A DNA stretch of 33,307 nucleotides from an uncultured Flavobacteriales bacterium (lineage in GTDB: Bacteria; Bacteroidota; Bacteroidia; Flavobacteriales; BACL11): positions 1 to 33,307 of the forward strand of contig CAJQHO010000023.1 in the NCBI GenBank assembly GCA_905478185.1. Reading direction: 5' to 3'. The notes below the pieces were generated by a model. That model saw nothing but the letters and a program-made list of their open reading frames with translations. It ran no database searches and was not told the origin of the DNA. The translations under genes and the position numbers were made by a program. Below are positions 25,085 through 33,307 of this stretch, in pieces. Every line of letters starts with the position of its first letter. Within the stretch, counting starts at the first letter, position 1.

Positions 25085-25171
25085 GGTGAGGTGGCCGAGT
25101 GGCTTAAGGCGCACGCTTGGAAAGCGTGTAAACGGGAAACTGTTTCGGGGGTTCGAATCCCTTCCTCACCG
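25085..25171 (+). tRNA. tRNA-Ser(GGA)
   Basis: The acceptor stem GGTGAGG pairs with CCTCACC, the discriminator is G at 25171, and the terminal CCA is not encoded. The anticodon loop TTGGAAA in a CACGC/GCGTG stem gives anticodon GGA. The T-loop GTTCGAATC is canonical, and the extended variable arm marks it as class II Ser. Its 3' end serves as the integration target of the element that follows and is kept intact by it. Confidence 0.97.
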
Positions 25172-25173
25172 CA
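25158..25173 (+). repeat. attL, within the tRNA-Ser gene
   Basis: TCCCTTCCTCACCGCA, covering the end of the T-loop through the acceptor and two bases beyond the tRNA. Identical to 31941-31956. The flanking bases differ on both sides, so the identity block is exactly 16 bp. Confidence 0.88.
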
Positions 25174-25219
25174 ACTATTTTAATATTTATATATAGTAAG
25201 ACTATATCTTAGATACTAT

Positions 25220-25240
25220 GGCAGGACAATTGGCAGGACA
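25220..25240 (+). repeat. paired 12-bp-period sites near attL (candidate integrase arm sites)
   Basis: GGCAGGACA occurs twice, at 25220-25228 and 25232-25240, with a 12-bp period. The closely related pair GTAGGACA lies at 31800-31807 and 31812-31819, upstream of the integrase. Paired direct repeats near both ends of such elements commonly bind integrase or excisionase. The binding role is inferred. Confidence 0.5.
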
Positions 25241-25341
25241 GAATTTTACTTTAAACTACTTAAATAGTTAATAAGTATTTTAACTAACTCGCTAAATTTT
25301 TAGTCTTTTTTTACAATTAGAGTTTGGAAAGTTATCCTTAA

Positions 25342-25626
25342 TTAATCCTCTTCCTCAGCTTCAGTATCTACAAAGTTAATGTTAATGCTAATAGGCTCCA
25401 TCTCTTCCACCTCTTCATAAGCTTTTACCTTTCCAATTGAATAAGGAAGTAGTTTAGAGATGGCATTAATATACTCTGTAGGACTGTCTATCTTATCTAG
25501 CATCTCCATTATCTTGTTTCCGTCAATTGCTTGGCTTATATGCTCTCTTATGAGCTTAGTAGTAGCGCTTACTGAACCTTTAGGTCTTCCTATAGGGTTT
25601 CCGCTTGTTCCTTTCTTAAATGGCAT
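25342..25626 (-). CDS. DUF5681-like protein, terminase-small-subunit-like
   Basis: A 94-residue protein beginning MPFKKGTSGNPIGRPKGS, the SGNPxGRPKGS signature of the DUF5681 family of phage-associated proteins. Some of that family are annotated near terminase genes, possibly as DNA-binding small subunits. A helical middle (SATTKLIREHISQAI...LDKIDSPTEYINAISKLLPY) and an acidic tail with SININFVD follow. It is the first gene after attL, and nearly the same gene begins the second module at 32330. It is probably a core rather than a cargo gene of the element. The ATG overlaps a dyad and follows the shared 13-bp motif at 25641. Packaging function is only a hypothesis. Confidence 0.75.
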   Translation of the reverse strand: MPFKKGTSGNPIGRPKGSVSATTKLIREHISQAIDGNKIMEMLDKIDSPTEYINAISKLLPYSIGKVKAYEEVEEMEPISININFVDTEAEEED

Positions 25627-25640
25627 ATTATATTGTTTAG

Positions 25641-25653
25641 TATATAATAGAAA
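25641..25653 (-). promoter_or_regulatory. shared motif TTTCTATTATATA upstream of the DUF5681 gene
   Basis: Identical 13-mers occur at 29713-29725, before the excisionase operon, and at 32333-32345, before the second DUF5681 gene. All are on the minus strand upstream of a minus-strand gene. It could be a promoter or operator of an element-specific regulator. Here it is 14 nt before the ATG. Confidence 0.5.
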
Positions 25654-25678
25654 GTATGCTCTTTTGTTTTAGTTTATT

Positions 25679-26998
25679 CTATTGACAATTGTCACTAAAG
25701 ATGCAGTTTTGAGGTATCATAAACCAAATAGAGGTTCCTTGAGAAGAAGTTAGAAACCCTTCGCCATTATTATTATGACTTTCCCATAAAGTTCCATCAT
25801 CTACACTAATACAGGTAAGTGCTATGCAATTTTGGATATATATTTGAGGTCCACCATAATATGTTACACCCGTCATATTCGAATTGTTTCCATTTCTCAT
25901 ATCTAATTTAACTAAGCTTGGTATTTCACGCAAGATTAATTCTTTTAAGTTTTCGCAAGAGCTAAGCTTTAAATCAGATATATTACAGTCACGTATATGT
26001 AGACACTCTAACTCTATTTTATTCTCTATATTTAAATCTAAGTTAGTTATTGAGGTTACATCAATATGTTTTAACGAGTTAACATTTTCTAAATTAAGAC
26101 TTATACAATTTCTAAGACGCAATTTTTTTAATAATATATTATTACTAATATCTAGATTAAAATCTACTGAATTTATTAATGCTAAATGGCTAATTAAAGG
26201 GTTGTTACTAAGATCTAAATCTGTAAAATTAGAAGAGCCACTTAAATGAGACAGAAGTGGATTATTACTAAGATCTAATGATGTAAGGGTTGAGTTGCCA
26301 ATACTCAAAGTCCTTAATTTTGTATTTTGGGTTAAATCTAATGAATTCACTTTATGATATATATATACATCTTCTGCACTATATATCCATAAATTTGTAG
26401 TATCTGATAATAATAATGTCTCCAAATTAATAAAATATTCTATACCTGTTAAATCAGCAATCTCATAATCAGAAGAACTGCCATTCGTATTTGATAAATC
26501 AACTAAGTTAAGGTGTTTTATATCAATAATATTTTTTGTGTTAACGTAATTATCTAACACATCATCATATCCTAAAGCAATCAAACATCTTTCAAATGCA
26601 TTATCAGGGATATAGGTGCATTCCTGTAAAAATTCTGTAGTAAAGACATAATTAGCGTGTAGATTAGGGTCATTTGTTTCAGCTTTTATTCTTAGTTCTG
26701 TGTCTGTGTAGGAAGTGACTTCTCCAATTAATAAAGTGTATTCTATAGAGTTAACATAAAATCTTAATTTAATCAAGTCACCATCAATAATCCAAGTTCC
26801 CATTAAGCTATCTTCTTTGCACACTTCTAAATAATAGAAATCTCCTTCTTCAGTTAGAAGCATTCCATTTTCTTCAGAAATATCCCACCATTTCTTCCCA
26901 ATGATAGTATCTTCCATTGTTTGCGGCGTTACCCCCGACTTACTACAAGAAGTTAATAGTAAAATAGGGCAAAGTAATATAAGTAGTAGTTTTTTCAT
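25679..26998 (-). CDS. leucine-rich-repeat surface lipoprotein
   Basis: A 439-residue secreted lipoprotein. The signal peptide ends at the lipobox LLTSC (Cys18). Residues about 20-125 form a lipocalin-like or unassigned beta region (GTWIIDGDLIKLRFYV). YIPDNAFERCLIALGYDDVLDNYV is the usual entry to Bacteroidota LRR domains. About ten LRRs of 20-22 residues follow (SLDLSNNPLLSHL, DLDLSNNPLISHL and so on). The last 50 residues include Cys-containing segments ENCxxL, QNCIALTCISVDDG and QNCIFSDNC. It probably binds a protein or glycan ligand outside the cell. It is the second gene in the element, at the variable cargo position. Confidence 0.85.
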   Translation of the reverse strand: MKKLLLILLCPILLLTSCSKSGVTPQTMEDTIIGKKWWDISEENGMLLTEEGDFYYLEVCKEDSLMGTWIIDGDLIKLRFYVNSIEYTLLIGEVTSYTDTELRIKAETNDPNLHANYVFTTEFLQECTYIPDNAFERCLIALGYDDVLDNYVNTKNIIDIKHLNLVDLSNTNGSSSDYEIADLTGIEYFINLETLLLSDTTNLWIYSAEDVYIYHKVNSLDLTQNTKLRTLSIGNSTLTSLDLSNNPLLSHLSGSSNFTDLDLSNNPLISHLALINSVDFNLDISNNILLKKLRLRNCISLNLENVNSLKHIDVTSITNLDLNIENKIELECLHIRDCNISDLKLSSCENLKELILREIPSLVKLDMRNGNNSNMTGVTYYGGPQIYIQNCIALTCISVDDGTLWESHNNNGEGFLTSSQGTSIWFMIPQNCIFSDNCQ

Positions 26999-27016
26999 TG
27001 TTAATCTATTGTTTTA
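26997..27016. repeat. 20-bp direct repeat, copy 1
   Basis: ATTGTTAATCTATTGTTTTA overlaps the start of the LRR gene and the stop codon of the lipoprotein at 27014. It is identical to 27478-27497. Confidence 0.9.
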
Positions 27017-27469
27017 TTCACAAGATAAGTTTGTGTTAAGTGACTTAACATAATAACTAACTAAATTATCCTCTGATATTTTCATTAATCCATTTTCTAA
27101 TAACTCAAATTCTATTTCAAAATAATCTACATTAGACTCTAAAATTATAGTAAATGGCCAAGCGTGATTATGTTGAGTGGTTGTTATGTAAAATTCTTCT
27201 CCTAAATTGTCATAGTTTTTTCCAAATTTATATTCGTTACAAGTAGTAGAGTTTTTTTCAATTAAAAAATAATTAGAATTGTAAAAACCTATTTGGTCAA
27301 GCAACAAAATTGTATCTCCACTATCAAAATTCCATACTGTTTCCTTATGGTACTCTAAAAAATTTCCATTTGAGGTATCTCCTATTTGAGGCGTTTTTTC
27401 ATTATTTTCTTTCTCACAAGAAAACAAGATAATTGATACTGCTAATAATGTGTAAAGTAGTTTTTTCAT
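27014..27469 (-). CDS. small secreted lipoprotein, unknown
   Basis: A 151-residue lipoprotein with signal peptide MKKLLYTLLAVSIILFSC (Cys18), then a mostly beta-strand, Asn/Glu-rich domain with a C-terminal Cys. I recognise no family. It is bracketed by perfect 20-bp direct repeats (copy 1 includes its stop codon), which suggests that it is a cassette gained or lost by recombination between them. Its first residues resemble those of the LRR lipoprotein (both start MKKLL), so the two may share a duplicated 5' region. Confidence 0.7.
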   Translation of the reverse strand: MKKLLYTLLAVSIILFSCEKENNEKTPQIGDTSNGNFLEYHKETVWNFDSGDTILLLDQIGFYNSNYFLIEKNSTTCNEYKFGKNYDNLGEEFYITTTQHNHAWPFTIILESNVDYFEIEFELLENGLMKISEDNLVSYYVKSLNTNLSCE

Positions 27470-27477
27470 CTTAGTTT

Positions 27478-27497
27478 ATTGTTAATCTATTGTTTTA
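27478..27497. repeat. 20-bp direct repeat, copy 2
   Basis: Identical to 26997-27016 and 481 bp away. It lies upstream of the lipoprotein at 27469. Confidence 0.9.
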
Positions 27498-27506
27498 AAG
27501 TCCAAA

Positions 27507-28088
27507 TTAAAATGCATAACCTACAGAGAAATTAAGGTTTGGTAAATATAAGGTATTTCCGTTATTAACTCCCGATAATGCTGTAGCAATGACACCCGCA
27601 TTTAAATCATATACAAAAGAATTAACTATCCATTGATTTCCAAATAATAAACCTGCACCATTATTTATTTCTTTGTAGGCATTGTCTTTGTTAGAGAAAT
27701 ATCTTCTGATTATATTAGGAGCAATATAAAACCCTCTATTTGCTTTCTTCCAACCTAAGTATACTCTGAAATCAGATGTAAAATAAAATGTATTTAAAGA
27801 GGTGTTAGTGAAAGTGTGATAAACTAATGAACCTACTCCTATTCTGCAACTTGTACGATTAGATATTCTCTTTTCAAATGACAAATTAACCTCACCCCAC
27901 AAGTAAGGCAATATGCTTGTTTTAATAATATTATCCTTTTTCTCTAATGTTGGTCTTTGTTTAATTCTTTCTTTTTTAAATGAGAAGTCTGATTCTGTCC
28001 AATTTTCCTTATTTGATTTTATAGTGTCATTCTGTGCAAAAGCCCAAATAGGAAGAAGTAATATAATTAGTATCTTTTTACTCATCAT
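27507..28088 (-). CDS. small outer-membrane beta-barrel protein
   Basis: A 193-residue protein. The signal peptide ends near WAFAQ (residue ~19). A charged linker to about residue 60 is followed by alternating hydrophobic strands (GEVNLSFEKRI, CRIGVGSLVYHTF, TFYFTSDFRVYLGW, FYIAPNIIRRYF, LNFSVGYAF) that end in Phe, as in outer-membrane barrels of about eight strands. It resembles DUF3575-type proteins but I would not assign it. Its start overlaps the end of the lipoprotein gene by 11 nt, so the two are coupled and may act together at the outer membrane. Confidence 0.7.
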   Translation of the reverse strand: MMSKKILIILLLPIWAFAQNDTIKSNKENWTESDFSFKKERIKQRPTLEKKDNIIKTSILPYLWGEVNLSFEKRISNRTSCRIGVGSLVYHTFTNTSLNTFYFTSDFRVYLGWKKANRGFYIAPNIIRRYFSNKDNAYKEINNGAGLLFGNQWIVNSFVYDLNAGVIATALSGVNNGNTLYLPNLNFSVGYAF

Positions 28089-28626
28089 TAGTTTTTAATT
28101 TAGCACCTTTAGAGATAATAGTAACATTTGCCTTATTTGTAAATAGACCGCTTCTAGTATTAATATTATATTTTGGATATACAAATAAATCTATACTAGG
28201 ATTTTCTTCTATTAACTTTTTGTTTGCGTTTCTTAATGCTGCATTTGAACTAGTTTTATGCCAAACAAGATTATTTACTGCACCTCCAACAGCAATACCT
28301 CCCAACAAATTTAAAGCGCCTAAAGGAGGTGTTAAAATTGGTAACATAGCTGAATAAACAAGGAATGTTAATACTCTTAGAGCATTAGACTGACTATAAC
28401 CTAAGTTAGACCCTAAGGAATTAGTAATCACTCCGTCTTTGTGGATTTCTCCACTTCCTATACCAAAGAAAGAATGTCCACTTGCTGACACGCTATTTAA
28501 TTCAACTAATTCATATTTCTCATTTAATTCTCCTGCATAACCTTGTTCTCCTTGTGTAATTAAAAGGGTTTTGCTACAACTGCTTAACAATAGTGCAGCT
28601 GTGATTACTAATAATATTCTTTTCAC
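28078..28626 (-). CDS. lipoprotein with central hydrophobic segment
   Basis: A 182-residue lipoprotein (lipobox LLSSC, Cys17). After the anchor come a beta-rich part (ITQGEQGYAGELNEKYELVELN) and an unusual 40-residue hydrophobic, Gly-rich region (about 88-125, LTFLVYSAMLPILTPPLGALNLLGGIAVGGAVN), which could insert in a membrane. A polar C-terminal part follows. No family recognised. It is the first of the envelope genes after rep and is coupled to the barrel gene (11-nt overlap), so an outer-membrane pair is likely. Confidence 0.68.
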   Translation of the reverse strand: MKRILLVITAALLLSSCSKTLLITQGEQGYAGELNEKYELVELNSVSASGHSFFGIGSGEIHKDGVITNSLGSNLGYSQSNALRVLTFLVYSAMLPILTPPLGALNLLGGIAVGGAVNNLVWHKTSSNAALRNANKKLIEENPSIDLFVYPKYNINTRSGLFTNKANVTIISKGAKLKTNDE

Positions 28627-28662
28627 AATTATATTTTTTTAAGTTAGGCTCAAATCTAATAA

Positions 28663-29052
28663 TTATTTCTTTACTATCCCCCAATTTGTCTTAGTATCAC
28701 AGATAAACTTAGAGACATACATACTTGCACTCTTTTCGTAAGGCAAATGCTTAACATGGTCTCCTATAAGGCTCTTAGACCTTAAATGATAGTTTATATC
28801 CCCTACAATGTCTCCCTTTAATAAGAGGTGGTTATGAGTGTTATAGTCATAGTTAGTGAACTCTGTAACCCAAAACATATTAAAAGGTTTGTCTAAGGTC
28901 TTAAGATACTCTTCTAAGCCTGTCATTACCTTGCGATTTTGCTCAGTTTTAACATCATATCTATAGGTGATTGTAGAGAAAGTATCCCACTTAGTTTCTG
29001 CTAACCAATTAGCATAATTCATTACTGTTTGTCTTTGTTGTTGTGTGTACAT
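28663..29052 (-). CDS. minimal HUH-type Rep-like endonuclease
   Basis: 129 residues. All three landmarks of HUH replication initiators are in order. Motif I region is TFSTITY (residues 24-30). The FWVTEF strand and the motif II site THNHLLLKG (His73, His75 as the metal pair) follow. Motif III is MYVSKF with Tyr112 and Lys115 three residues later. A single Tyr is typical of rolling-circle Reps. It is much shorter than usual Reps (200-350 residues), with no helicase or extra domain. The second residue of the HUH box is Asn rather than hydrophobic, so activity must be tested. It is followed upstream by a nested inverted repeat (29108-29142) that could be its origin. Confidence 0.7.
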   Translation of the reverse strand: MYTQQQRQTVMNYANWLAETKWDTFSTITYRYDVKTEQNRKVMTGLEEYLKTLDKPFNMFWVTEFTNYDYNTHNHLLLKGDIVGDINYHLRSKSLIGDHVKHLPYEKSASMYVSKFICDTKTNWGIVKK

Positions 29053-29107
29053 AATTTATTGATTTTTAGTTAGTTATAATTATTTAATTTACTGATTAGA
29101 TATAGTA

Positions 29108-29142
29108 AGTATTAAAGGGTGAAACACCCAACACTTAATACT
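29108..29142. other. nested inverted repeat beside rep (candidate double-strand origin)
   Basis: Outer arms AGTATTAA (29108-29115) and TTAATACT (29135-29142) enclose inner arms GGGTG (29117-29121) and CACCC (29125-29129) with a 3-nt loop. It lies between the 91-residue gene and rep. A hairpin beside rep is a usual place for a rolling-circle nick site. It could also be a terminator-like element on the rep transcript, but no T-run follows on either strand. Confidence 0.5.
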
Positions 29143-29154
29143 ATTTATGTCCTT

Positions 29155-29430
29155 CTACTCGTTCTCTAATTCATTGAACTTAGCGAGTGCTTTTTCCCAA
29201 TCGCATATTGTCCAAGCAGTCTTTCCAAAGTCTTTATCTTTTGGGAAAACTTCTCTTTCTTCATATTTTTTACCGTTTAACTCCATAGGCGCTAAAACCT
29301 TTAACTTAAACAGTTCAAAACATCTCATATTTGCTACCCCCCTTTGTTCATACAGGGAATATCTCTTACCTTTTAGTACTTGAGTATAGGTGTAGTTATT
29401 TTTATTGATAATTTTATCTAAGGGTATCAT
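29155..29430 (-). CDS. 91-residue conserved-type protein, unknown
   Basis: A 91-residue soluble, mixed-charge protein (NYTYTQVLKGKRYSLYEQR, then ELFKLKVLAPMELNGKKYEEREVFPKDKDFGKTAWTICDWEKALAKFNEL). No family recognised. Its ATG overlaps the stop of the HTH gene by 4 nt, so the two are coupled. Position between the HTH gene and rep suggests a regulatory or replication accessory role in the element. It is not a membrane protein. Confidence 0.6.
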   Translation of the reverse strand: MIPLDKIINKNNYTYTQVLKGKRYSLYEQRGVANMRCFELFKLKVLAPMELNGKKYEEREVFPKDKDFGKTAWTICDWEKALAKFNELENE

Positions 29431-29684
29431 TGCTTATATTTTAAAGTTTCCATCACTTCTTTATAATCATAGCGTATTGTTCTACCTATTTGACTAAAAG
29501 GTATCTTTCCTTGCTTTCGGTATTTGTGTAGGGTTACCTTTGTAATGTTTAGTCGTTTAGACAATTCTTTTTCGGTAATGATGTTGTACTCCAAATTAGG
29601 TTGAGTGCAGGTGGCTTTGTAGATTGCATCTTCAATTAATTGTTTTAATTCTTCTTTGCTGATTGTGATGTTTGTTTTTTCCAT
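29427..29684 (-). CDS. excisionase-like helix-turn-helix protein
   Basis: 85 residues. The C-terminal ~50 form a winged-helix/HTH_17-type DNA-binding unit: IITEKELSKRLNITKVTLHKYRKQGKIPFSQIGRTIRYDYKEVMETL. The N-terminal half is helical. This is the common small DNA-binding protein of integrative elements of Bacteroidota, which acts as excisionase or regulator. It is first in the leftward operon (HTH, 91-residue protein, Rep, envelope genes), with the shared 13-bp motif 28 nt upstream. Confidence 0.8.
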   Translation of the reverse strand: MEKTNITISKEELKQLIEDAIYKATCTQPNLEYNIITEKELSKRLNITKVTLHKYRKQGKIPFSQIGRTIRYDYKEVMETLKYKQ

Positions 29685-29712
29685 TTGTCTATTTTTTAAT
29701 TGGTTTGTCTTA

Positions 29713-29725
29713 TATATAATAGAAA
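29713..29725 (-). promoter_or_regulatory. shared motif TTTCTATTATATA upstream of the excisionase operon
   Basis: One of three identical 13-mers (25641-25653, 32333-32345), here 28 nt before the HTH gene ATG. Occurrence before the lead gene of the operon and before both DUF5681 genes points to coordinated control. Confidence 0.5.
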
Positions 29726-29830
29726 TGGACTATATTCATTTGGGTTATTTTTACTTTATTTTATCAAATGTGATATAAAGCACTGATATACAGTAAGTAA
29801 TGAATGTTAAATGCTAATTAGATATTTTGC

Positions 29831-29838
29831 TATCTTTG
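29831..29838 (+). promoter_or_regulatory. -7 box of the divergent lipoprotein gene
   Basis: TATCTTTG is a perfect TAnnTTTG box ending 21 nt before the ATG at 29860. Confidence 0.6.
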
Positions 29839-29859
29839 GAAAAACTAAAACACACAATT

Positions 29860-30525
29860 ATGAAAAATATTTCTTTACTAGTAATCCTATCAATTATCAT
29901 TATTTCTTGTTCAAGCCCTCTAGATAAAGCATATAAACAAGACACCTTAGAAGAAGATATAGTGGTACTCAAAAAATCGATTTCTGAAGAAGAGCTCAAA
30001 ACATTAACAGGCTATATAGCTCTAAAATCCTTCTCAGGTGATGATATGCTTGGCAAAACTTATAATGACTTACTTGAAGAAGCAAAAAAACTTCAAGAAG
30101 AACTAAGATTACAAGAAGAGGAGCAAAAAATACTAGCTGAAAAAGCAAAAATAGAAGAAGCAGAAAAAATTAAACGATTAGGAGATGCTTTAACTGTTTC
30201 TTTTTTTGATAAAGGATTTTCAGAATATAAGTATCAAAAATATATTACCTATAAATTTGTTTTTGAAAATAAAACAGAAAAAACAATGAAGGCATTTACG
30301 GGTGAGATTAAAATAACTGATTTATTTGATAAAGAGATTAAAAGTTTTAGTCTTACTTATGATGATGGGGTTCCTGCAAATAGCACTAAAAATTGGGATG
30401 CTCAAACTGACTATAATCAATTCATAGATGAAGATGTTTTACTAAAGAATAAAGATATGGAGGACTTAAAAATAAGATGGATACCTGAAAAGATAATATT
30501 TTCAGATAATACTACACTTGAATAA
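29860..30525 (+). CDS. lipoprotein with coiled coil, unknown
   Basis: 221 residues from the ATG at 29860; the longer reading from 29827 uses TTG inside the -7 box and is rejected. Signal peptide ending at the lipobox IISC (Cys17). Then a helical region with a long Glu/Lys coiled coil (about residues 72-108, LLEEAKKLQEELRLQEEEQ...EEAEKIKRL). The C-terminal ~110 residues are beta-rich and may be an Ig-like or FxLYD-like fold (YKFVFENKTEKTMKAFTGEIKITDLF). It has its own promoter and is the only plus-strand gene of the element, placed between the HTH operon and the integrase; an immunity or surface-exclusion role is possible but speculative. Confidence 0.72.
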   Translation: MKNISLLVILSIIIISCSSPLDKAYKQDTLEEDIVVLKKSISEEELKTLTGYIALKSFSGDDMLGKTYNDLLEEAKKLQEELRLQEEEQKILAEKAKIEEAEKIKRLGDALTVSFFDKGFSEYKYQKYITYKFVFENKTEKTMKAFTGEIKITDLFDKEIKSFSLTYDDGVPANSTKNWDAQTDYNQFIDEDVLLKNKDMEDLKIRWIPEKIIFSDNTTLE

Positions 30526-30530
30526 TATTT

Positions 30531-31790
30531 TTAACTAGCCTTCTTTTTATAATTCATAGTTATAATCTTCTCTGTTGAGGTTAAAGCTATATTTATTGCA
30601 ATCATACTTTCTTCTGCAGTATGTTGAACATAGTTTAAAAAATCACTTTCTTTAATATGCCCTGTGGCTTTCATTATATGAGTAATTGGTATTCCCCTTT
30701 TATATAAATTAGTGGCAAATGACCTTCTTCCTGTGTGAGATGCTATGAATTTATATTTTGGCTTAGTTATAAGTATCGGCAATCCTTTTTTATACCCATC
30801 AACTGTAAAATCCTCAATAAGTCCTGCAAGCTGACCTAATTCTTTTAAGTACAAATTATAGTTCTGTGATGATATTTTTGGAAATTGATAATTATACTTT
30901 TTAAATAAAAATACTGCATCTTTTCTGAGTATTGTTACAATCTCTTTATCTACTTTTTTTGAATAATATCTTAGAATTATTGTTCCATCTCTTAACGTTT
31001 CAATATTTTGTTTATTAACACTTAAATAATCAGAAAATCTTACTCCTGTTAAGCAAGAAAAGATAAAGATATCTCTAACTCTCTCAAGCTTTTTTTTGTG
31101 AGTTAAATTTATTCTATAAAGCAGCTCTACCTCATTGTCATTCAAATATAACTTCTTAGTTTTTGTTCTTATAATTACGAACTTCTTATAATCCATATAC
31201 TTATTAACTCCTACTTTAGTCGCATCATTAATAATTGCCTTAATATCTGTAATTCTTCTTCCAAATAAATTAGGGTTATTTTCTAATACTGTATATTGAA
31301 AGACCTGATATTCTTTATAGAATTTCATATCTAAGGTATCCCAATCTATTTTACGTTTAGAATGTTTTTCAAATTTCCTTAAACTATCTATAGAATACCT
31401 ATAGCCATCTACAGTAGATGGTTTTTTTGTTTTCTCGCTATTAGATAAAAATATTTCACAATACTCAAAAAAGGATTGACAACTACTTACACCTTTTATA
31501 CTCTCATTAAGTTTCTCTGACAATATCCCATTAGAAATAGGTTGATTATTATTTAACAAATCATAATATATGTCTATTACTTTTTTTGATAATATCTCTA
31601 ATCTTTTATTTACGACTAGAGCATCCCCACAACTTGCTTTTAGTCTTTGCTTATTGATATTCCAATGATGATTTAAAACTTTTATGCCAATAAATTTTCT
31701 AAACCTTTTTCCATTGTAGGTAAAGTCAAGCCTAATATTACTTGATGTGTCTTTTGGATGTTTCTTTTCAATTCTAAAATTTACTTTCAT
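30531..31790 (-). CDS. int: tyrosine integrase
   Basis: Site-specific recombinase that integrates and excises the element at the tRNA-Ser end. 419 residues from the ATG at 31790; the in-frame TTG at 31808 is rejected. N-terminal arm-binding domain, SAM-like core-binding domain (about 100-200), catalytic domain with Arg251 (TGVRFSD), the His352-x-x-Arg355 box (SHTGRRSFAT), His378 (TGHIK) and the nucleophile Tyr387 (FLNYVQ). All catalytic residues are in place, so it is probably active. It belongs to the Bacteroidota phage/CTn-type integrases. It lies at the far end from tRNA-Ser, transcribed away from attR, and its upstream region holds paired 12-bp-period sites. Confidence 0.95.
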   Translation of the reverse strand: MKVNFRIEKKHPKDTSSNIRLDFTYNGKRFRKFIGIKVLNHHWNINKQRLKASCGDALVVNKRLEILSKKVIDIYYDLLNNNQPISNGILSEKLNESIKGVSSCQSFFEYCEIFLSNSEKTKKPSTVDGYRYSIDSLRKFEKHSKRKIDWDTLDMKFYKEYQVFQYTVLENNPNLFGRRITDIKAIINDATKVGVNKYMDYKKFVIIRTKTKKLYLNDNEVELLYRINLTHKKKLERVRDIFIFSCLTGVRFSDYLSVNKQNIETLRDGTIILRYYSKKVDKEIVTILRKDAVFLFKKYNYQFPKISSQNYNLYLKELGQLAGLIEDFTVDGYKKGLPILITKPKYKFIASHTGRRSFATNLYKRGIPITHIMKATGHIKESDFLNYVQHTAEESMIAINIALTSTEKIITMNYKKKAS

Positions 31791-31799
31791 AATATGATG

Positions 31800-31819
31800 G
31801 TAGGACAATCTGTAGGACA
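31800..31819 (+). repeat. paired 12-bp-period sites near attR (candidate integrase arm sites)
   Basis: GTAGGACA at 31800-31807 and 31812-31819, 12-bp period, same orientation and nearly the same sequence as the pair at 25220-25240. It also lies directly upstream of the integrase start, where it could serve for autoregulation. Confidence 0.5.
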
Positions 31820-31940
31820 GATTTTGGTTAATTCAGTTTAATCAATATTTATCAATATTAAACAACTTGAATATTAACCCTATCATAAAAAGGGTGATAT
31901 TTTTAAACTTGTTGAAAAGTGAAGATATTCTAAATTGCGG

Positions 31941-31956
31941 TCCCTTCCTCACCGCA
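31941..31956 (+). repeat. attR of element 1 / likely attL of element 2
   Basis: TCCCTTCCTCACCGCA, identical to the end of tRNA-Ser at 25158-25173. The rest of the tRNA is missing. A related element begins immediately to its right. Confidence 0.88.
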
Positions 31957-32051: not shown

Positions 32052-32330
32052 TTATTCCTCTTCTTTAGTATCTACAAAGTTAATGTTAATGCTAATAGGC
32101 TCTATCTCCTCAACATCTTCATAAGGCTTTATCTTTCCAATAGAATAAGGAAGAAGCTTTGCTATTGCATTAATATACTCTGTAGGAGACTCTATCTTAT
32201 CTAGCATTTCCTTTATCTTATTTCCATCAATAGCGTTGCTTATATGCTCTCTTATGAGCTTTGAAGCAGTGCTTACTGAACCTTTAGGTCTTCCTGTAGG
32301 GTTTCCGCTTGTTCCTTTCTTAAATGGCAT
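32052..32330 (-). CDS. DUF5681-like protein, second copy
   Basis: A 92-residue paralogue of the protein at 25342-25626, with 12 differences in the first 88 residues. It has the same MPFKKGTSGNPxGRPKGS start, the same helical core and the same SININFVD end. Most differences are conservative (V/I, D/E, S/A). It is the first gene of the second module. Its ATG lies inside a perfect 8-bp dyad and only 2 nt downstream of the shared 13-bp motif, so it would be almost leaderless if that motif is the promoter. Confidence 0.75.
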   Translation of the reverse strand: MPFKKGTSGNPTGRPKGSVSTASKLIREHISNAIDGNKIKEMLDKIESPTEYINAIAKLLPYSIGKIKPYEDVEEIEPISININFVDTKEEE

Positions 32331-32396: not shown

Positions 32397-33307
32397 TTAG
32401 TAACTATTTATAGTTATGAAGCCACTAGTAGAAAATGAAACCCCACCTCCATATTGCCAAGCGTGACAACAATGTTGTCCACTAAGGGAACTGTAGATTA
32501 TAATTGTTGTAGCATTAGAAAAGAACTTCTTCATTACATACATTCCATCTCCGTTTGGAATAATGGATGATGAAAGATTATTGCTAGAAAACCCAGATGA
32601 ACTAACTGTTAAGAAACTTAAAGAATTTCCAGTTAAATCTGTAAAATAAATTTGAGAATCTGTATTACTGGCATATGAAGAACCACTTCGGTTATAAAAC
32701 CCATTAATATCCACCATAGAGTTTGCTGGAATTTCTAATGTGTCAATGACAACATTTGTTGAAAAACTACTTCCGACACCTAAAGTTCCACTACTAAGAT
32801 TTGAGTTAAACTCAATTGATGTGGAAATCATAGAGGAACTAGAATTACTTGATGAAGAACCACCTCCACCACAACCTGCAAAGTAATTCTCATCTACTAA
32901 GTAGCCATTAAAATTAAGAAAATAATTTCCACCAGGCGCATTATTTGTAAGCACATCACCTTCTCCAAAAATTAAATAGTTTTCATCTGCTAATACATTT
33001 GCTGAATGTATTAAAAGTCCATCAGCATATATGCCATAACCTCCAACTCCATTTGTAGAAACAATATATAAGTTTTTTCCTGTTGGAACAGTGTATGGAT
33101 TTGAACTTGTTAATGAAAAGGAGATTGGCTCAATAATCTTATCCACTAGAAATCCATTAAAATTAAGAAAATAATTTCCGCCAGGCGCATTATTTGTAAG
33201 CACATCACCTTCTCCAAAAATTAAATAGTTTTCATCTGCTAATACATTTGCTGAATGTATTAAAAGTCCATCAGCATATATGCCATAACCTCCAACTCCA
33301 TTTGTAG
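32397..33307 (-). CDS. repeat-containing secreted/surface protein, 5' end outside the window
   Basis: Partial: the frame stays open to the window edge, so the apparent GTG start at 33203 is an internal Val. At least 303 residues are visible. The N-terminal visible part consists of 83-residue repeats (GGYGIYADGLLIHSANVL, then GEGDVLTNNAPGGNYFLNFNG, then SLTSSNPYTVPTGKNLYIVSTN), a beta-rich unit seen in Bacteroidota secreted proteins. A Gly/Ser-rich linker (CGGGGSSSSNSSSS) leads to a ~140-residue C-terminal beta domain ending ISFSTSGFITINSY-like. It could be a surface adhesin or a tail-fibre-like receptor-binding protein. It is in the position taken by the LRR lipoprotein in element 1. No signal peptide can be judged. 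Confidence 0.65.
   Translation of the reverse strand, partial: TNGVGGYGIYADGLLIHSANVLADENYLIFGEGDVLTNNAPGGNYFLNFNGFLVDKIIEPISFSLTSSNPYTVPTGKNLYIVSTNGVGGYGIYADGLLIHSANVLADENYLIFGEGDVLTNNAPGGNYFLNFNGYLVDENYFAGCGGGGSSSSNSSSSMISTSIEFNSNLSSGTLGVGSSFSTNVVIDTLEIPANSMVDINGFYNRSGSSYASNTDSQIYFTDLTGNSLSFLTVSSSGFSSNNLSSSIIPNGDGMYVMKKFFSNATTIIIYSSLSGQHCCHAWQYGGGVSFSTSGFITINSY
32905..33307. repeat. 249-bp tandem repeat inside the surface protein gene
   Basis: Positions 32905-33058 and 33154-33307 (154 bp visible) are the same except for one base (32931 versus 33180), at an offset of 249 bp, that is 83 codons. The second copy runs out of the window, so more copies may follow. The near-identity implies a recent duplication and possible copy-number variation. 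Confidence 0.92.

Follow-up and report, generated by a model that had tools for sequence, protein, structure and literature searches.

The closest described counterparts of the gene analysed here are Lcl of Legionella and other bacterial collagen-like adhesins, and Lcl homologues have been reported in the phyla around Bacteroidota (PMC11162425). Relatives of our gene resemble these adhesins in having a signal peptide, a Gly-X-Y stretch and a C-terminal head, and one of them (L022) ends in the Lcl_C domain (PF07603) above the curated cut-off, a second (L026) falling below it. In contrast to Lcl, however, the relatives carry a pair of units, predicted to be jelly rolls, between the collagen stretch and the tip, and the visible part of our gene has an orphan tip, with no Lcl_C-type hit to the window protein in a Pfam search up to E 1. 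The second comparison is with tycheposon-type elements, which, as passages of PMC10872708 describe them, combine a tyrosine recombinase, a tRNA gene with a repeated 3' end and flexible cargo. Element 1 of the window and the L022 element, both described below, share these features. The cargo here consists largely of genes for secreted proteins, in many cases with a DUF5681 ORF behind them; we draw a likeness and do not assign membership. A literature search of open-licence full texts found no description of the paired module or of DUF5681 cassettes.

The window, i.e., the whole stretch of DNA analysed, is the entire contig C23 (33307 bp) of a draft genome of 1.66 Mb in 66 contigs, from an uncultured Flavobacteriales bacterium that, like the relatives found, is probably marine, to judge by record titles and small genome sizes. 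At its right end, a minus-strand frame remains open through two copies of a 249-bp repeat and has its 5' end beyond the end of the contig (Table 1). The first-pass annotation had described two near-identical in-frame copies that differ by one base over 154 bp, and we find the same: 32905-33058 and 33154-33307 agree at 153 of 154 bases, in frame and at a spacing of 249 bp, with the single mismatch at 32931/33180, a degree of identity that rules out a chance repeat. When the comparison is extended to 171 nt (32888-33058 versus 33137-33307), identity is 96%, and six of the seven differences cluster at 32891-32904; within the unit, the differences lie almost all at the 3' edge. The encoded pair is 98% identical over 55 comparable residues. 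A search for direct repeats of at least 30 nt between 28000 and 33307 returned the 249-bp repeat as the sole family, and the repeat is absent from the output of a Tandem Repeats Finder run, probably because fewer than two full copies are in view.

Table 1 Features of the window, with positions on the forward strand
Feature	Position	Strand	Basis
tRNA-Ser (gga)	25085..25172	+	3' end plus one further base forms the first att-like copy (25158-25173)
Integrated element 1: integrase, lipoprotein-like genes, DUF5681, Rep-like ORF	25174..31956		att-like copies 6783 bp apart; Pfam
Tyrosine integrase of element 1	30531..31808	-	PF00589, PF17293, PF13102
Second copy of the 16-bp tRNA-Ser 3' end, att-like	31941..31956	+	repeat search
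Likely element end, conserved with the copy beside tRNA-Val on C65, not with C20	31957..32051	-	alignment
ORF with DUF5681 (PF18932), immediately downstream of the surface gene	32052..32330	-	Pfam 1.1e-8; same layout on C65 and C20
Surface/fibre gene of collagen-like type, 3' part	32397..33307	-	open frame of 302 codons; fuller relatives; start beyond contig end
C-terminal (tip) domain, no relatives among the searched genomes	32397..32840	-	order-wide search
Unit B, second of the pair, complete	32892..33125	-	249-bp repeat; profile hit; pair identity comparison
127-bp stretch that recurs as the contig's final bases (33181-33307)	32932..33058	-	exact match
Unit A, first of the pair, 5'-incomplete	33141..33307	-	249-bp repeat; profile hit

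The window ends at 33307 because the contig ends there, and the terminal 127 bases of C23 are an exact copy of a stretch further inside. Testing eight contig ends against stretches of six contigs, rather than the whole genome, we observe an exact terminal repeat at two of them, on the right of C23 and on the left of C7, each exactly 127 bases long; the C7 repeat has a period of 135 and lies within collagen-like codons. The other six ends, among which are those of C65 and C20 where a surface gene is broken, have no 20 bases in common with the six-contig stretches. That two unrelated repeats are of this same length suggests a de Bruijn-graph assembly whose word size was 127, a common maximum in SPAdes. 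The end of C23 is best read as an assembly-graph break, in which the repeat itself probably cut the contig, so that the assembly leaves the unit number of this genome unsettled, two being the copies in view. The repeat thereby offers an explanation of how collagen-like fibre genes can break in fixed-length-word assemblies. The same genome contains more collagen-type surface-gene fragments, each broken at a contig end: L037:2-739 (C7), L038 (C65) and L040 (C20). The sole N-terminal piece detected in this genome is on C7, which encodes the signal peptide and the beginning of the collagen part of a surface gene that breaks off at the end of C7; C23, C65 and C20 are candidate continuations into C7, and the data do not discriminate among them.

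The first-pass annotation had also asked for a check on collapse at 33307 and named an assembly artefact as the refutation of its claim. A contig that stops exactly 127 bases into a repeat would be compatible with a single genomic copy doubled by the assembler. For the duplication itself, however, an artefact is unlikely: the seven differences over 171 nt and the different neighbours of the two copies (FLVDKIIEPI versus YLVDENYFAG) are unlikely to be an assembler's invention, and pairs occur in the separate assemblies of other genomes, one of them within a 1.06-Mb contig. Doubling by the assembler, rejected on the differences and the neighbours, is thus highly improbable, and we take it as very likely that the genome holds a true duplication.

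Relatives of the window protein were found in six of 100 genomes searched, its own genome included, and at five loci of a named-genome collection, in MAGs assigned to Flavobacteriales by title. Unit-bearing genomes number seven of the 52 of the family and nine of 395 sampled from the order, the window's own genome being counted in both; this is a small sample and consists mostly of draft assemblies, in which longer identical arrays may be collapsed or lost. The fuller relatives have a signal-peptide-like start (judged by eye in the full-length proteins), followed by an N-terminal domain and, in most cases, Gly-X-Y repeats; behind a linker come between one and three paired blocks and lastly a varied tip, which can be Lcl_C, phage Collar, Fib_succ_major, or none known. 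Gly-X-Y runs of 15-112 triplets are present in eight of the 11 bacterial relatives, with PF01391 in those scanned; the other three are without a collagen run, and two of these (L023, L082) are uncut at the start. The collagen part varies in length from 0 to 112 triplets, some of the proteins being cut by contig ends, and the number of paired blocks per protein varies from one to three. Units are about 83 residues long and are bordered by mostly conserved sequence, with PxGLxG leading in and DENYFxxCGGG at the end. In L021 and L022, the gene directly upstream of the surface gene is small and encodes a type IX sorting domain (PF18962).

The visible part of the window gene contains no Gly-X-Y repeats, its 5' end being beyond the contig. 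Its tip domain, searched at E <= 0.001, matches one of the 395 genomes sampled from the order, which is the window's own, and the window sequence found no match among solved structures. The earlier description of the gene as surface-type is supported by its relatives, with their signal-peptide-like starts, mostly collagen repeats, and adhesin- or fibre-type tip domains. Surface display of the fibre, and a role in binding or adhesion, would be in keeping with this architecture.

To count units, we used a profile whose 36 constituent units came from 18 arrays that are themselves in the count, and searched 395 distinct ORFs of at least 120 codons, from fetched loci chosen at or near relatives. 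The search found 24 arrays, 22 with exactly two units and two with a single C-terminal hit; one of the two-unit arrays (L008) is cut by a frame break. Arrays of three or more units were absent (0 of 24 among the 395 ORFs), and no single unit stood between the usual flanks, both single hits being C-terminal. These counts bear on the expectation of the first-pass annotation that length variation of the protein is likely. On such a reading, the gene would be a variable-number repeat adhesin, with slippage or unequal crossing-over altering the number of 249-bp units among clones. The repeat is fresh and in frame, the contig ends within it and so leaves the true number in the genome unsettled, and variation in repeat number is on record for collagen-like adhesins (PMC6460258). 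In that study, however, it is the Gly-X-Y part that varies and not the head domain, and across species the expected variation did not appear: 22 of the 24 arrays have exactly two units, among them alike pairs with marked synonymous divergence, and a unit number that differs between related genes was not found. We thus consider copy-number variation of the unit unlikely, and propose that two is the working number of units per block.

The two units of a block are either very similar or much less so. In the 21 of 22 pairs measured (L008 was left out), nine are 80-100% identical in amino acids and 12 are 22-52% identical, the latter including both viral pairs, and none falls between 52 and 80%. 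Units of different pairs share a mean identity of 37% and a maximum of 57%. Accordingly, the nearest neighbour is the own partner for all 18 units of the nine alike pairs versus two of 18 units of unlike pairs in the same comparison, and alike pairs occur in eight different genes whose units are otherwise dissimilar. Outside the unit, the sequence of the two slots diverges at once in all nine alike pairs. Between genes, the slot that a unit of an unlike pair occupies makes almost no difference (35.6% identity for the same slot versus 33.8% for the other slot), which counts against the reading favoured below.

Within the alike pairs, the synonymous difference ranges from 0 to 0.48 per site and the amino-acid-changing difference from 0 to 0.117. 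As the synonymous difference reaches 0.48, the alike state does not reflect fresh duplication only; some alike pairs are fresh, and some are old but held. In several of them (L021, L024, both pairs of L025, and L082) the differences are spread across the unit and not confined to its edge, so that clean conversion tracts are not seen there. The L024 pair (L024:8998-9594), with about 21 amino-acid-changing versus six synonymous changes (0.117 versus 0.105 per site), is the only alike pair in which the amino-acid-changing rate exceeds the synonymous one, and judged by these counts is possibly under diversifying selection.

A simpler history would have each alike pair arise by a recent tandem duplication of one unit, with the unlike pairs as old duplications and no recurrent homogenisation. 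The window pair and the L022 pair, which show little or no divergence, are what such a history predicts. But a one-unit block between the usual flanks, from which the duplication would start, was not among the 24 arrays, the alike pairs are scattered over eight genes with otherwise dissimilar units, and steady ageing would be expected to fill the empty range between 52 and 80% identity. We regard recent duplication as somewhat unlikely, if the least so of the alternatives to our reading.

The reading that we favour, with reasonable though far from full confidence and on comparisons of sequence, is that the repeat is the paired two-slot head of a secreted, usually collagen-like Flavobacteriales fibre, recurrently made alike by recombination, and not a length-variable array. 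Recombination between the slots, either by gene conversion or by loss and re-duplication, would keep or re-make the slot sequences alike, giving copies that are near-identical within a block and much less similar between blocks, and purifying selection would hold the older alike pairs. The data do not tell gene conversion, loss and re-duplication, and purifying selection apart, and it is from the pattern of identities that we infer a recombination mechanism.

Structure prediction is consistent with a paired module. AlphaFold2 on the pair of relative L018, with ten sequences, gave beta strands only (mean pLDDT 78.9, pTM 0.77), and the single units of this kind match nucleoplasmin-type jelly rolls with Z up to 9.2. 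The whole pair aligns with the two tandem jelly rolls of peptidylglycine alpha-hydroxylating monooxygenase (PHM) at Z 7.9 over 159-160 residues and 3.5-3.6 A, a score that common arrangements can come near; the sequences are 7% identical, and the similarity to PHM is one of arrangement only. We predict a small beta jelly roll for each unit, and a tandem pair would form a double jelly roll between the mostly conserved flanks. The model of the window's own 302 residues was poor (mean pLDDT 57.4). Foldseek searches against the PDB were led by matches with low TM-scores, to PKA regulatory subunits (0.21-0.23) and PA5104 (0.34-0.36).

Among predicted viral proteins, a structure search with the pair reached phage proteins, its hits including the uncultured Caudovirales protein A0A6J5LX31 (TM by query 0.51) and tail-fibre-like proteins of the cyanophages S-CAM1 (0.45) and P-SSM2 (0.46). 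At the sequence level, two IMG/VR contigs carry a unit pair, and in the one of the two covered by a family scan (L072) the neighbouring ORFs match tail-fibre and baseplate families. Searches with the whole window protein against viral contigs returned no match, and the two IMG/VR pairs used as queries found no relatives beyond themselves.

Could the window gene then itself be a tail-fibre gene of a prophage? The unit pair on the two viral contigs, in one case beside tail-fibre and baseplate families, and an integrase only 0.6 kb away from the gene would suit such an origin. However, the gene has no match in 50,697 phage records at the DNA or protein level, and in a PHROGs scan of six window proteins the integrase is the only strong match, with no recognised phage structural genes beside the gene and the side beyond the contig end out of view. 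Moreover, unlike the tail-fibre-like proteins, the full-length relatives start with signal-peptide-like stretches, and two of them follow the gene with the type IX sorting domain. On the phage-record search and the PHROGs scan, we rejected a prophage tail fibre as the main reading, and consider it very unlikely; a secreted fibre with a two-slot head remains our preferred reading.

The integrase belongs to an element of about 6.8 kb at a tRNA-Ser gene (element 1 in Table 1), where a tyrosine recombinase is found together with a 16-bp repeat of the tRNA 3' end. An ORF of this element (28663-29052) has weak similarity to PF23343 (REP_ORF2-G2P; E 4e-6, just below the curated cut-off). Behind the second att-like copy lie a stretch of about 95 bp and the DUF5681 ORF, both closely conserved beside a tRNA-Val gene on C65, where the copy likewise adjoins the end of a surface gene of collagen type; of the two, C20 shares the DUF5681 ORF alone. 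Genome G008 (L022) has a 13.5-kb element at a tRNA-Val with the same neighbour gene as the tRNA-Val of C65, and this element contains 18-bp att-like copies, an integrase, and a surface gene with two identical units. A second att-like copy was found for two of seven tRNA genes tested (window and L022) and, in the stretch examined, for none of the five other tRNA genes near surface genes. Six of 15 gene clusters have a tRNA within about 5 kb versus a rough chance expectation of 22% (P 0.09), which is weak alone, the 22%, the 15 and the six being our own estimate and counts. Two other family genomes have a surface gene near the counterpart of the window's tRNA-Ser/asparaginase locus (L083:2875-2962 and L027:4347-4434).

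For the window surface gene, a left att-like copy and a conserved element end are present, and the right end is beyond the contig. The gene is probably the cargo of a second element, in tandem behind element 1; because its far end lies off the contig, we infer this second element from att-like repeats, integrases and the shared element end.

DUF5681 ORFs tend to be located just downstream of secreted cargo genes, as in the window (32052-32330 and, within element 1, 25516-25623), L022 and L021:9509, and the L022 element has three (at about 4837, 7079 and 8378), as if closing cassettes. The family gave 27 DUF5681 hits from 12 of 52 genomes, ten of them above the curated cut-off. An upstream same-strand ORF of at least 90 codons is listed for 21 of the 27, and 20 of these 21 end within about 200 bp of the DUF5681 start; 14 of the 20 have a signal or lipoprotein peptide start or are surface genes, as judged by eye and without a random-ORF control. 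Two (C20, C65) of the six hits that have no listed upstream ORF follow surface-gene fragments.

Different secreted genes in several genera of the family have a near-identical DNA leader in common, ATGAAAAAACTACTACTTATATTACTTTGCTTGCC, examples being window 26998 (a minus-strand start), L020:2494, L037:2929 and L106:3203. Of the 52 family genomes, 37 contain a degenerate pattern for MKKLLLILLCLP and none a backward control pattern, and many of the matches across several genera have one DNA spelling. Conservation across 24 leader contexts stays at 0.9 or higher for the initial 30 nt, drops to 0.73 and then 0.69 over the following two decades, and is close to background past +50; a first-eight-codon pattern served to select these contexts, so that conservation is partly built in, and at least six of the 24 start the same kind of gene. 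As a lead, this leader pattern suggests that the bodies of secreted genes may be exchanged behind a shared leader. A more far-reaching model would join these observations: a two-slot recognition head kept symmetric by slot recombination would be carried on tRNA-integrating elements that exchange secreted-gene cassettes (each with a leader of some 35-50 nt, then a variable body, closed by a DUF5681 ORF), which together would form a distributed surface-diversification system. We put this forward as a doubtful proposition.

Near-identical tandem domains are usually read as copy-number variation; here, the number stays at two and the content is kept or re-made alike, and this steady number with a re-made likeness is the unexpected part. 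A pattern of concerted evolution in a surface fibre raises a testable question, namely why the two halves must match. The finding also connects the collagen-like fibres of Flavobacteriales with fibre modules of phage type and with tRNA-integrating elements; if the more far-reaching model were true, these elements would be a distributed means of surface diversification for fibres in contact with phages, algae or other cells.
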